A stretch of DNA of 64,000 nt, taken from assembly GCA_003583745.1 (NCBI GenBank), contig QXPY01000007.1:124001-188000 (forward strand), given 5' to 3'. This document shows, piece after piece, positions 37,301-62,395 of the stretch (position 1 is the stretch's first letter; each line of letters opens with the position of its first letter). The position numbers were made by a program, and so were the translations under genes. The notes beneath the pieces were generated by a model. It was not told the DNA's origin and ran no database searches. It worked only from the letters and a program-made list of their open reading frames with translations. This stretch comes from Rhodocyclales bacterium GT-UBC (GTDB lineage Bacteria > Pseudomonadota > Gammaproteobacteria > Burkholderiales > Rhodocyclaceae).

Positions 37301-37946
37301 GATGCCTGACATCGATGGCATCGAAACCTTGAACCGGATTCGCCGCCAGTCGCTGGGTCGGCAACCGCAAGCGCTGCTCATCACCGCATCGGCAACCCCG
37401 TTGATCATCGAAGAAGCCAAAGCGGCCGGCTACGCCGATGTAATCATCAAACCGCTATCAGCCAGTGCCCTGCTTCAGGCCTGCACCCCGCTGGCCCTGC
37501 TCGCTGCGCCGGCTGCCGCCCCCCAGGACTTCAGCTCTCAAACGCCCGAGTTAACACTGCGGCAACGCTACTCACACAGCCGTATCCTGTTGGTCGAGGA
37601 TGATCCGATCAATCAGGAAGTCGCCCTGTTCCTGCTTGAGGATGCCGGGCTGAAAGCCAGTGTCGTGGGTGACGGTCAGGCCGCTGTCGATCAAGTCAGG
37701 CGCGAACACTTCGATCTCGTCTTGATGGATATGCAAATGCCCATCATGGATGGCCTTGAAGCAACCCGCCAAATCCGTCGCTTGCCGGGTCGCGAACACC
37801 TGCCCATTCTGGCCATGACGGCAAACGCCTTCGCCGAAGACAAATCGGCCTGCCTGGCTGCCGGCATGAACGACTTTCTGAGCAAACCGGTCGATCCCGA
37901 CTTGTTGTTCTCGTTACTGCTTAAATGGCTCGCACAGAAAAGCTGA
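34383..37946 (+). CDS. Hybrid sensor histidine kinase, Cache-HAMP-PAS-PAS-HisKA-HATPase-REC-REC
   Basis: A 1187-residue membrane kinase. TM1 is at about 21-46, a periplasmic double-Cache-type sensor at 50-298, TM2 at about 301-321, HAMP to about 375 and a coiled coil. PAS domains lie at about 412-520 and 535-650. HisKA has the phosphorylated His683 ([11 protein letters not shown]), and the HATPase is at about 785-900 (N box [11 protein letters not shown] boxes). Two receiver domains follow, with acceptors Asp971 ([11 protein letters not shown]) and Asp1116 ([11 protein letters not shown]). No Hpt domain or adjacent response regulator is seen. The stop abuts the cowN stop without a spacer base. 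Confidence 0.93.
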
Positions 37947-38261
37947 TCAACAGCACTCTTCCTCAAGCTGCATCAAGAGTTCAAGGGCATCCGCGTCATC
38001 GCAGTCCTCGAAGAACTCCCGAATCTGGTTGATATGGCAATGCACCAGGAACAAATCGTCCGGTACAGGCCCGCTCTTGGGTTGCCGTTTGGCCATGAAG
38101 TACTCCCAGAAACCGTTGCCGTGACCGGCCGCGATATTACGTTCGATATACTCCATTACGCGGCGGGCGTTGCCGTCGCAATCGATCCCGTTGAAGCTTT
38201 CGTAACGGTCGGTCTTGCTACGGCAGCCACACGCGGCCGGGCGGGTTTGTGTCGTATCCAT
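37947..38261 (-). CDS. cowN: CowN, protector of nitrogenase against carbon monoxide
   Basis: CowN is a small cytoplasmic protein that lets nitrogenase keep fixing N2 when CO is present. The 104-residue protein matches the family along its length: DRYESFNGIDCDGNARRVM, GFWEYFMAKRQP, PVPDDLFLVHCHINQIREFF and the invariant acidic-dicysteine end EEECC. The N-terminal 18 residues (with CGC) are less conserved. The SD AGGAG lies 7 bases before the ATG, inside a small hairpin. The gene directly follows a CooA-like regulator, and a CooA-type operator and -10 box lie in the gap, so CO-dependent induction is the likely control. Confidence 0.93.
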   Translation of the reverse strand: MDTTQTRPAACGCRSKTDRYESFNGIDCDGNARRVMEYIERNIAAGHGNGFWEYFMAKRQPKSGPVPDDLFLVHCHINQIREFFEDCDDADALELLMQLEEECC

Positions 38262-38291
38262 GCTGGGCTCCTGAAATATCTTCAGGAACCG

Positions 38292-38334
38292 ATTCTAGGG
38301 ACAAGCCGATTTTGATTCCGTCGGCTGGCCGACA
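38292..38334 (-). promoter_or_regulatory. Predicted CooA-type class II promoter of cowN
   Basis: Read on the minus strand, TGTCG-N6-CGACG (38319-38334) fits the CooA operator pattern TGTCR-N6-YGACA. A -10 box TAGAAT lies at 38297-38292. With +1 at 38285 the operator centre falls at -41.5, the exact class II activator position. No -35 box is needed in that arrangement. The cowN leader would be about 24 bases. Confidence 0.65.
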
Positions 38335-38340
38335 GTTTTG

Positions 38341-39033
38341 CTAATTCGCGCTAACGCGACACCTTTCGGATAGCGCCTCTAGCGACTTGACCAGCAAGCT
38401 GCGCCGACTCTGCCGGACCAGGATGCCTTCGCGCTCCCACTGGTTGATCAGTGAAGAAACTGTCTGCCGGGTCGAACCGAGCAGGCTGGCAATATCTTCG
38501 GTACCCAGATCGAGCGGCACCAGCCAACCGGCATCCGTCACCTGACCGCGTCGATTGGCCACACCGAGGAGAAAACGCGCCAACCGGGCCGGCACTTCGC
38601 GAAAGGCCAGGTCCTCGATGAGATTGACGGCATTGACCAACATCCTTCCCAGTACGCGCATCATCACCGGCGTCACCGTCGGATCAGTCGACAGCTTGCG
38701 GGCGAAAGCCGCCGTTTCCATCATCCACAAAACACTTGGGGCTACGGCCTCGACATAAGTCGGGGTATGCGTGGTGTAGATATCGCCGGCATCAAGAAAG
38801 CTCAGGGTCAGTTCGCGATTCTCGCCAGCCAGATAGACCCGTAAGCGCCCCGATTGGACGAGAAAGACCTGATTGTTTGGTCCAGTCGGCGTCGACAACA
38901 GCTCGCCCTTGCCCAGATTGCGCCGCTCGAAACCAGCTGCGATGCCCTCGCCACGATCCGCCTGTGCCAGTGCCTGCAGCCAATGTTCAGCCGCACCGCC
39001 AATCTTTCCGGGAAGGTGATGAGCAAGGTCCAT
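38341..39033 (-). CDS. CooA-like Crp/Fnr family regulator (probable CO sensor)
   Basis: A 230-residue Crp/Fnr protein: cyclic-nucleotide-binding-like sensor fold (about 15-125), long C helix (about 125-160) and winged helix. The segment RELTLSFLDAGDIYTTHTP lines up with the heme site of CooA, keeping the His ligand (His89 here, His77 in R. rubrum CooA) but with Thr87 in place of the redox-exchanged Cys75. The recognition helix STRQTVSSLINQW resembles the CooA SSRQTTSTALN. The next gene is cowN, with a CooA-type site between. I use the ATG at 39033; a TTG at 39045 is also possible. Confidence 0.85.
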   Translation of the reverse strand: MDLAHHLPGKIGGAAEHWLQALAQADRGEGIAAGFERRNLGKGELLSTPTGPNNQVFLVQSGRLRVYLAGENRELTLSFLDAGDIYTTHTPTYVEAVAPSVLWMMETAAFARKLSTDPTVTPVMMRVLGRMLVNAVNLIEDLAFREVPARLARFLLGVANRRGQVTDAGWLVPLDLGTEDIASLLGSTRQTVSSLINQWEREGILVRQSRRSLLVKSLEALSERCRVSAN

Positions 39034-39116
39034 GTCGCAAGCCAAGCAAGAGCAAGGCCAACGACGATCTCACGAAAAATCAGGCAATTGGATAAGCGAA
39101 GTCCAGAAATTGGCTG

Positions 39117-39132
39117 ACTTGCGACAGCAAGT
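39117..39132. other. 16-bp palindrome upstream of the CooA-like gene
   Basis: ACTTGC-GACA-GCAAGT lies in the 109-base gap between the mutarotase stop and the regulator start. It could be an operator or a weak hairpin ending the mutarotase transcript; there is no T run. Confidence 0.45.
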
Positions 39133-60918: not shown

Positions 60919-62194
60919 TCTGATGCCGACAGGAAAAGCCATCGGCAACGATCACCGCATCGGGCGCGGCGGCGCGCACCGCGGGTAACAGGGCAAGCTC
61001 GCCCATTTTGACCGACGCCGCGTAGTGTTCGGCCTCCAGGCCGAAGCTGCCGGACATGCCGCAACAACTGGCATCGACGATCTCGAATTCGAACTCGGGA
61101 ATCCAGCCCAGAACCTTTCTGACCGATTTCATGACACCGAAGGCCTTCTGGTGACAATGCCCGTGCACAACTGCCTTGCCGCCGGGGATCGGCTTCAAGT
61201 TCAGTTTCAAGCCCTTGTTGCCCTCGCGCATCAGGAATTCTTCGAACAGGAAGGCCTGCTTGCCAAGTTGCGCCACATCCGGACCGAGCGACAGGCTGTA
61301 AAACTCGTCGCGCAAAGCAAGCAGGCAGGATGGCTCCAGGCCGACAATCGGCGTCCCTGCAGCCAGGGCTGGTGCCAGGGCCGCCATGACACGGCGACCT
61401 TCAAGCTTGGCCGCATCGACCATACCCTGCGACAGGTAGGTTCGGCCGCAACAGAGCGGTCGCTCGGCTTCCGCGTCATCCGCCGCCGGCTTCAGCACTT
61501 CGACTTCATAACCGGCAGCGGCCAGAACGGCACAGGCGGCCTCAGCCACTTCCGGCGTGTAGTAATGGGTGAAGGTATCGACGAAGAGAATCACTTTGCC
61601 TCTTTCGCCAGCAGGCGTTTCTGTTTTTGCCGCAAAGGGCGACGCTGCCGGCAAGGGAATCGGACGTTGCGCCGAGATGCCCAGCCAGCGCTCGGCCAGC
61701 TTCGCCAACAAACCCGAGGCATTGCGCCAGCGCACGATCCGTTCGAGCGGCCGGCGATAGGAGTGAAGCCAGTCCGGCAGTTGGCCGAATGCCCGCGCCC
61801 GTCGCGACACGCCGAGTTGCTCGTTCTTTTGCGCCAGGTATTCGGTCTTGATCAACGTCATGTCCACCGCGCTCGGGCATTCCTTCTTGCAGCCCTTGCA
61901 TGAAACACAGAGGTCCATGGCTGCAGCCAGATCGGGATGGATGAACGGCTGTTCGCCGTAATCGCCGTTCAGCGCCGCCTTGAAAGCCTTGACCCGGGCG
62001 CCGGTCGAATGCGCCGGATCGCCGGTTACCCGGTAACTCGGACACATCACGCCCTTGCCGTCACGCTGGCACTGATGATTGTTCATGCAAACCGCCACCG
62101 CCTTGGCGTAATTGCCCCCGGTTGCCGGAATGCCGGCATAGGCATCGCCCATGCCGTAAGTGTCGTAAGCCGACCAATCAAGATGCGTTTTCAT
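60854..62194 (-). CDS. Fe-S oxidoreductase with two CCG domains (GlcF/HdrB-like)
   Basis: A 446-residue protein with two 4Fe-4S sites near the N terminus (CMNNHQCQRDGKGVMCPSY and CVSCKGCKKECP) and two cysteine-rich CCG domains (PLCCGRTYLSQG, then DASCCGMSGSFG). This is the electron-transfer half of glycolate/lactate-oxidase-type enzymes; here it stands alone. The GlcD-like FAD subunit at 54133 could be a partner, but distance argues against it. Convergent with the hemerythrin gene; I use the ATG at 62194, with a GTG at 62206 as alternative. Confidence 0.88.
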   Translation of the reverse strand: MKTHLDWSAYDTYGMGDAYAGIPATGGNYAKAVAVCMNNHQCQRDGKGVMCPSYRVTGDPAHSTGARVKAFKAALNGDYGEQPFIHPDLAAAMDLCVSCKGCKKECPSAVDMTLIKTEYLAQKNEQLGVSRRARAFGQLPDWLHSYRRPLERIVRWRNASGLLAKLAERWLGISAQRPIPLPAASPFAAKTETPAGERGKVILFVDTFTHYYTPEVAEAACAVLAAAGYEVEVLKPAADDAEAERPLCCGRTYLSQGMVDAAKLEGRRVMAALAPALAAGTPIVGLEPSCLLALRDEFYSLSLGPDVAQLGKQAFLFEEFLMREGNKGLKLNLKPIPGGKAVVHGHCHQKAFGVMKSVRKVLGWIPEFEFEIVDASCCGMSGSFGLEAEHYAASVKMGELALLPAVRAAAPDAVIVADGFSCRHQIKDGSGREAVHVAVLLQRALA

Positions 62195-62264: not shown

Positions 62265-62280
62265 TGTCGTATTTGCGACA
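62265..62280 (+). promoter_or_regulatory. NifA upstream activator sequence
   Basis: TGT-N10-ACA (TGTCGTATTTGCGACA) lies about 95 bases before the expected nifB transcription start, the usual distance for NifA enhancers. Confidence 0.8.
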
Positions 62281-62343
62281 ATGGCCCGACAGGCCGATTT
62301 TGCACAAAACGCCAAGCTACTGTTTTTTAATAACTTTCACGAC

Positions 62344-62358
62344 TGGCACAGCGATTGC
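62344..62358 (+). promoter_or_regulatory. Sigma-54 promoter of nifB
   Basis: TGGCAC-N5-TTGC is a perfect -24/-12 element. The AT-rich stretch at 62322-62340 between it and the UAS could bind IHF, though I see no exact IHF consensus. Confidence 0.88.
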
Positions 62359-62395
62359 TGAAAAGGCTCCGCACAGCTTTTGAGGAGCCTTCATC

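Follow-up and report, generated by a model that had tools for sequence, protein, structure and literature searches.

A candidate CooA operator before cowN and a sigma-54-type promoter before cooA suggest a two-step carbon monoxide response in a diazotroph of the Rhodocyclaceae

The minus strand of the window (the whole stretch of 64,000 nucleotides analysed, from Rhodocyclales bacterium GT-UBC) carries, in the order of transcription, an aldose-epimerase gene, a gene for a CooA-type CRP regulator, a gap of 79 bp and cowN (Table 1). A hybrid histidine kinase gene converges on this row, and its stop at 37946 abuts the cowN stop at 37947. The cowN gene had been recognized in an earlier note on this DNA, and its identity is certain: the product matches PF20543 with an E-value of 3.9e-36 (123.9 bits, cut-off 27) and NF033689 with 120.7 bits (cut-off 48). 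The regulator, described in the same note as CooA-like, has CooA chains as its closest solved relatives (2fmy, 1.4e-39; 2hkx, 5.1e-38; 1ft9, 1.1e-37); the nearest full-length chain not named CooA scores 1.2e-16, and the alignment with 2fmy is gap-free across 200 residues. Among the 11 of 14 candidates scored in its own genome, it is the single regulator match at E <= 1e-25.

Table 1. Features of the cooA-cowN region, in the order of transcription (positions are those of the window).
Feature	Position	Strand	Basis or remark
NifA-type upstream site TGTCGCAAGTCAGCCA, imperfect	39111..39126	-	8/10, shuffle P 0.06
Sigma-54-type (-24/-12) promoter of cooA, TTGGCCTTGCTCTTGCT	39045..39061	-	26.5/31 (own scoring scheme), shuffle P 0.02
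cooA homologue, probable start ATG 39033	38341..39033	-	closest solved relatives CooA
Codon of the His aligned with His77 of R. rubrum CooA	38767..38769	-	His in 38/38
Recognition helix STRQTVSSLINQW	38437..38475	-	Arg177 and Gln178 of CooA invariant, 38/38
Candidate CooA operator TGTCGGCCAGCCGACG	38319..38334	-	motif, conservation, published consensus
Dyad GTCGGC-CA-GCCGAC within the operator	38320-38333	-	sequence read
-10-like box TAGAAT	38292..38297	-	21 bp behind the operator
Predicted +1 of cowN mRNA	38285	-	from the -10 box, arithmetic
cowN, nitrogenase CO-protection protein, 104 aa	37947..38261	-	PF20543, NF033689; ATG preceded by AGGAG

The gap between the two genes holds the 16-mer TGTCGGCCAGCCGACG and a -10-like box, both exactly where the earlier note had placed them. 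The 16-mer agrees with the published CooA operator consensus TGTCGGCNNGCCGACA, reported for the coo operons of Desulfovibrio and R. rubrum, in 13 of the 14 specified letters (PMC545781). If the transcript is taken to start at 38285, a position assumed from the -10 box, the centre of the operator falls at -41.5, and the arithmetic of the earlier note thus holds. A simple sigma-70 promoter scan of the window passes no promoter before cowN, as would be expected if that promoter depended on an activator; the result is consistent with such dependence rather than proof of it. The cowN leader also contains an inverted repeat, CCTGAA-N5-TTCAGG (38270-38286), which covers part of the ribosome-binding site and of which, by eye, the relatives have none.

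Motif statistics alone were rejected as evidence for an operator. Across the whole window, TGTCG-N6-CGACR with at most one mismatch finds 12 matches against a shuffle mean of 11.3, and 47 of 100 shuffles reach at least 12. For the gap itself, chance was gauged with random 79-bp sequences drawn from a first-order Markov model of the window. P was 0.0042 for GTCR-N6-YGAC and 0.0009 for TGTCR-N6-YGACR in either orientation, and the dyad GTCGGCYRGCCGAC, a form picked after the sequences were seen, turned up in 1 of 50,000 trials. Since the loose motif is common in both window and genome, comparative support is needed.

Such support comes from 58 cowN loci, that of the window among them. Sampling of 249 genomes of the family yielded 46 of these, in 42 genomes; the other 12 were found through the regulator and are thus biased towards having it. 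In 39 of the 58, the window again among them, cowN is preceded by a cooA homologue in the same orientation. The 300 bp ahead of the cowN match contain GTCR-N6-YGAC in all 39 cooA-cowN loci, as against one of the 19 other cowN loci, so that the repeat proposed from the window is conserved in related Rhodocyclales (Azonexus and Dechloromonas records, for example). The lone positive among the 19 is L056 (genome G115), whose cooA lies 2.7 kb upstream while the operator is still found at cowN. Similarly, cooA and cowN are 1.2 kb apart in L031, with the operator 64 bp before cowN; in these two loci, then, the operator goes with cowN and not with cooA. The 39 loci are related and do not amount to 39 independent events. 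Moreover, the operator overlaps the cooA stop codon in 11 of 38 loci (L002, L003, L005, L006, L008, L010, L012, L013, L014, L018 and L019) and sits inside the cooA frame in 4 of 38, so part of the conservation in these 15 could be coding. Locus L007 (genome G174) has a cooA homologue interrupted by one in-frame TGA, although its cowN operator still matches GTCR-N6-YGAC; this locus was kept in the operator count and taken out of the residue counts. Both L007 and L006, which is cut at a contig end, were left out of the upstream and N-terminus analyses, and L059 (100 bases of the own genome) was not used.

The sequence behind the operator is conserved in its spacing. A GAC directly follows the operator in most relatives (G in 36, A in 35 and C in 28 of 39) and would fall at -33 to -31, in the region of a -35 element; in the window it reads GAA. 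A -10-like box (TACAGT, TAAAGT, TAGCAT or weaker) mostly lies 21-22 bp behind the operator, its columns holding a modest 0.26-0.69 bits over the 39 loci, with poor boxes in L032, L051, L053 and L058. The GAC and the spacing of the box suit the needs of a class II activator at -41.5, plus or minus one base, and the site before cowN in the window is likely to be a CooA site at that position, as the earlier note had proposed. Outside the family, cowN was found in at least 5 of 398 genomes of the phylum, with a capped number of candidates scored per genome here as in the other genome searches; the own genome is one of the five. Of the other four, L095, which belongs to a different class, has an adjoining cooA and the site, TGTCAGATGGCTGACA, followed after 21 bp by TATACT, which is the same spacing.

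A stricter form of the site, TGTCGGCNNGCCGACR, was searched in 11 of the 28 genomes that have the regulator. It occurs in one place each in nine of them, always at cowN, and in the own genome it is likewise found only there; the reversed control has two places, one each in G201 and G232. Judged by this search, the strict site is one with a single target in the nine genomes. It is absent from the remaining two of the 11, G062 and G115, whose operators are CGTCGGCCAGCCGACG and CGTCGTCTACGCGACA, and several of the 17 other regulator genomes carry TGTCGGCTGGCTGACA at cowN, a form that TGTCGGCNNGCCGACR misses.

The genomic distribution ties regulator and target to nitrogen fixation. Among the best candidates scored per genome (up to 11), the regulator (E <= 1e-25) is present in at least 28 of the 249 family genomes, all of them within the 42 that have cowN. 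A nifD match is found in all 42, in 41 above the cut-off, which bears out the link to nitrogen fixation that had been claimed from the window. Of the 18 cowN loci that have no operator, 11 follow nifD in the same orientation at a distance of 3.3-3.6 kb; cowN thus seems to be controlled either by its position among the nitrogenase genes or by CooA. Four genomes have two copies of cowN, of which one follows cooA and has the operator while the other lacks it: G011 (L012, L046), G109 (L018, L055), G156 (L010, L050) and G245 (L011, L043). The second copy lies behind nifD in G011, G156 and G245. The earlier note had seen no CO dehydrogenase genes, and this extends to the genome: the anaerobic enzyme (TIGR01702) has no match in any of the eight members of the genus searched, the own genome included, and matches to the aerobic enzyme (TIGR02416) in the own genome all stay far below the cut-off (best 107.4 vs 991 bits).

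Upstream of cooA, the window contains a candidate sigma-54-type promoter and, further out, an imperfect NifA-type site (Table 1). The mechanically called cooA frame opens at TTG 39045, that is, within this promoter. In several relatives TGTCGCAAANCCGGCA stands equally far before cooA. In 17 of 37 loci (the window and 16 relatives) the last C of the -12 element closely precedes an ATG, by 13 nt in 15 loci and by 14 or 15 nt in the other two. The single-locus shuffle P of the sigma-54 sites before cooA ranges from 0 to 0.21. In the same 17 loci the best match to TGTCG-N6-CGACA starts with TGTC, scores 7-10 of 10 and is centred 36-61 bp before the -26 base; this upstream site is perfect in L017 and L040 and at chance level in L031 (P 0.37). 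In five further loci (L010, L011, L012, L018 and L027) a sigma-54-like site precedes the ATG by 36-42 nt, with no comparable NifA-type site upstream. In 14 of the 37 the search ahead of cooA gave no convincing sigma-54 site, and L005 has a strong one (28.0) which lies 291 nt ahead of the conserved domain, so that 15 of 37 are unconvincing overall. A spacing of 13 nt would put the start codon at about +2, and the mRNA may thus be leaderless and translated from ATG 39033 rather than TTG 39045; accepting this, cooA probably starts at the ATG. Judging from the motif, the activator of the cooA promoter is most likely NifA. With such a promoter and a NifA-like site before cooA, cowN should need both nitrogen-fixing conditions and CO. 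The earlier note had described a self-contained CO-response unit, and regulator, operator, -10-like box and cowN do lie together; the unit nevertheless does not appear to be self-contained, given the candidate sigma-54-type promoter and NifA-like site before cooA.

A two-step, single-purpose CO response that protects nitrogen fixation is, in our view, a highly probable reading of the locus. While nitrogenase genes are being expressed, the sigma-54 promoter would be activated by an enhancer-binding protein, in all likelihood NifA, and CooA would be made. CooA would hold haem through the equivalent of His77, and binding of CO would yield a dimer able to bind TGTCGGCCAGCCGACG. Bound about 41.5 bp before the cowN start, CooA would then recruit sigma-70 RNA polymerase to a promoter whose -10 element is usable but whose -35 element is poor, and the CowN produced would protect nitrogenase.

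The sensor protein itself is consistent with a haem-based regulator of the CooA type but departs from R. rubrum CooA. The equivalent of His77 is present in all 38 homologues with an intact frame, or in 38 of 39 if the broken frame of L007 is counted, and the recognition helix, likened to that of CooA in the earlier note, has kept both residues listed in Table 1. In R. rubrum CooA, Cys75 is reported to be exchanged for His77 on reduction (PMC6955866). Two residues before the His77 equivalent, where Cys75 would stand, the window protein has Thr; over 38 homologues this position is T in 21, S in 14, C in 2 and A in 1. The distal ligand may differ as well. It is given as Pro2 of the partner subunit in R. 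rubrum CooA (PMC12937710), and the window protein, which from ATG 39033 begins MDLAHHLPG, has no Pro2. The N-terminal segment up to a conserved GF measures 35 residues in the window and 9-44 in 37 loci, with a median of 24 that the rule used to choose starts favours. Many relatives have His-rich tails, such as MHAHAHH, and with starts set by the length rule a His falls within the first 12 residues of 32 of 37 N-termini. Behind its tail the window protein has the His77 equivalent as its sole His, and its sensor domain has no Cys. The tails hint at another distal haem ligand, which may be an N-terminal His. However, five of the 37 N-termini (L008, L012, L017, L027 and L040) lack a His among those 12 residues and the His positions do not align, for which reasons a His-tail ligand was not adopted as the main reading. 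That the cowN-linked CooA forms a distinct subclass, with no Cys75, a His-tail distal ligand, a leaderless sigma-54 mRNA and a single operator, is accordingly a doubtful proposition; if it were true, a short His-rich tail would replace the Pro2/Ala2 amine as the displaceable distal ligand.

The alternatives to CooA control of cowN concern the origin of the transcript, the signal, the protein at the site and the nature of the dyad. First, most cowN transcripts might begin at the sigma-54 promoter of cooA and read through into cowN, with the operator as a mere booster. The two genes are collinear and 79 bp apart, and no minus-strand terminator is called between them (one terminator-like match, at 38595-38577, lies inside cooA). 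Against this, the operator stays at cowN in L031 and G115, where the genes are far apart, and a separate -10-like box recurs in the relatives, which makes read-through as the main source improbable.

Second, the regulator, though related to CooA, might respond at its haem to another signal, such as NO or the redox state. The loss of Cys75 in 36 of 38 homologues, which have Thr, Ser or Ala there, and an N-terminus unlike that of R. rubrum CooA, where the distal ligand originates, speak for this. However, C. hydrogenoformans CooA is described as having Ala2 and His82 as ligands and no Cys ligand swap (PMC6955866), so Cys75 is not needed by all CooA proteins. Moreover, His77 is invariant, the operator precedes a CO-protection gene in 39 loci and its core is the same as in the CooA sites reported at CO dehydrogenase operons (PMC545781). 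A different signal is thus quite improbable.

Third, the 16-mer might be an upstream activator site of NifA, with cowN under direct NifA/sigma-54 control. One consensus contains the other: every full TGTCR-N6-YGACA fits TGT-N10-ACA, the form given for NifA sites (PMC8047169), so that finding both before cowN is not in itself a sign of NifA acting on the gene. Perfect TGTCR-N6-YGACA occurs in 13 places in the own genome, against 6 for the control. Seven of the 13 (L082, L085, L087, L088, L089, L090 and L091) are flanked on one or both sides, at no more than about 200 bp, by a sigma-54 promoter scoring at least 26.5/31, and are for that reason read as NifA-type sites. One of them, at 62265-62280 in the window, belongs to nifB (TIGR01290, 639.2 vs a cut-off of 343.65 bits); nifE and nifV appear to stand at others, by our own reading of the proteins. 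The CooA-type motif proposed in the earlier note thus fits the published consensus and is conserved, but in its loose form it is not CooA-specific in this genome. A wider CooA regulon there was also rejected: GTCGGCYRGCCGAC with one mismatch finds 36 places per strand vs 30 for the control, and seven of the 13 loose matches look NifA-type. Two further perfect GTCGGCYRGCCGAC places lie on contigs 2 and 5. The NifA-type site at 62265-62280 lies between divergent sigma-54-type promoters, of which 62343-62359 (plus strand) faces nifB and 62222-62206 (minus strand, by arithmetic) faces the gene for a GlpC-like iron-sulfur protein (below the family cut-off); the likely ATG of that gene, at 62194, keeps the same distance of 13 nt to the -12 C.

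Published work lends the NifA alternative some further weight, as a NifA site has been read over the CooA site before cowN of G. diazotrophicus (PMC8047169). However, no good sigma-54 promoter follows the operator: the best -24/-12 match downstream of it scores 19/31 in the window, on which ground sigma-54 control of cowN was rejected there, and no match exceeds 23.5/31 in the 39 loci. TGT-N10-ACA is complete in 17 of the 39 operators, has lost one end in 13 and both in 9, whereas GTCR-N6-YGAC is intact in all 39; the window operator ends in ACG and is not a perfect TGT-N10-ACA. Finally, the core of the cowN operator is GGC-NN-GCC, unlike the A/T-rich centres of the NifA-type sites, and this core and the type of promoter separate CooA sites from NifA sites. 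There is, then, only a very slight chance that the site before cowN serves NifA. Fourth, a scan calls the dyad a terminator-like hairpin on the plus strand (38320-38333, followed by AGTTTTGC), but this reading was rejected as extremely improbable because the hairpin points away from both cooA and cowN, has five pairs and no T run on the minus strand, lacks the T run (by eye) in many relatives, and would leave the near-constant distances to the -10-like box and to cowN unexplained.

CooA control of cowN has a precedent in another class: Hoffmann and colleagues reportedly found in 2014 that NifA activates cooA in Rhodobacter capsulatus and that CooA with CO activates cowN directly, which is the same order of NifA, CooA and cowN as that proposed here. 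With such control already published for other diazotrophs, the locus may be seen as a well-supported further member; in the collection of papers searched, none dealt with CowN in Dechloromonas or in Azoarcus. As in G. diazotrophicus, where a CooA site tGTCg-N6-tGACa is reported 60 bp upstream of cowN in algH-cooA-cowN and cooA is called likely RpoN-dependent, cooA adjoins cowN; unlike there, its neighbour is an aldose-epimerase gene instead of algH, the site is not also a perfect TGT-N10-ACA and the core is a full GGC-NN-GCC (PMC8047169). Adjacency of cooA and cowN is likewise described for Rubrivivax gelatinosus, and also for relatives without anaerobic CO metabolism genes (PMC4257681). In Desulfovibrio and R. 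rubrum the reported coo targets are CO oxidation operons, whereas here the target would be a nitrogenase-protection gene; still, the D. vulgaris cooSC site TGTCGGCTAGCCGACA is identical to the operators of L012, L018 and L019 (PMC545781). The present loci would carry CooA control of nitrogenase protection, so far published for a small number of diazotrophs, into a betaproteobacterial family, where the strict site seems to serve one gene; the own genome has no match to the anaerobic CO dehydrogenase. The loci also indicate that in a diazotroph the loose CooA motif is indistinguishable from NifA sites unless core and promoter type are considered, and this nesting of motifs bears on the overlapping NifA site published before cowN of G. 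diazotrophicus.
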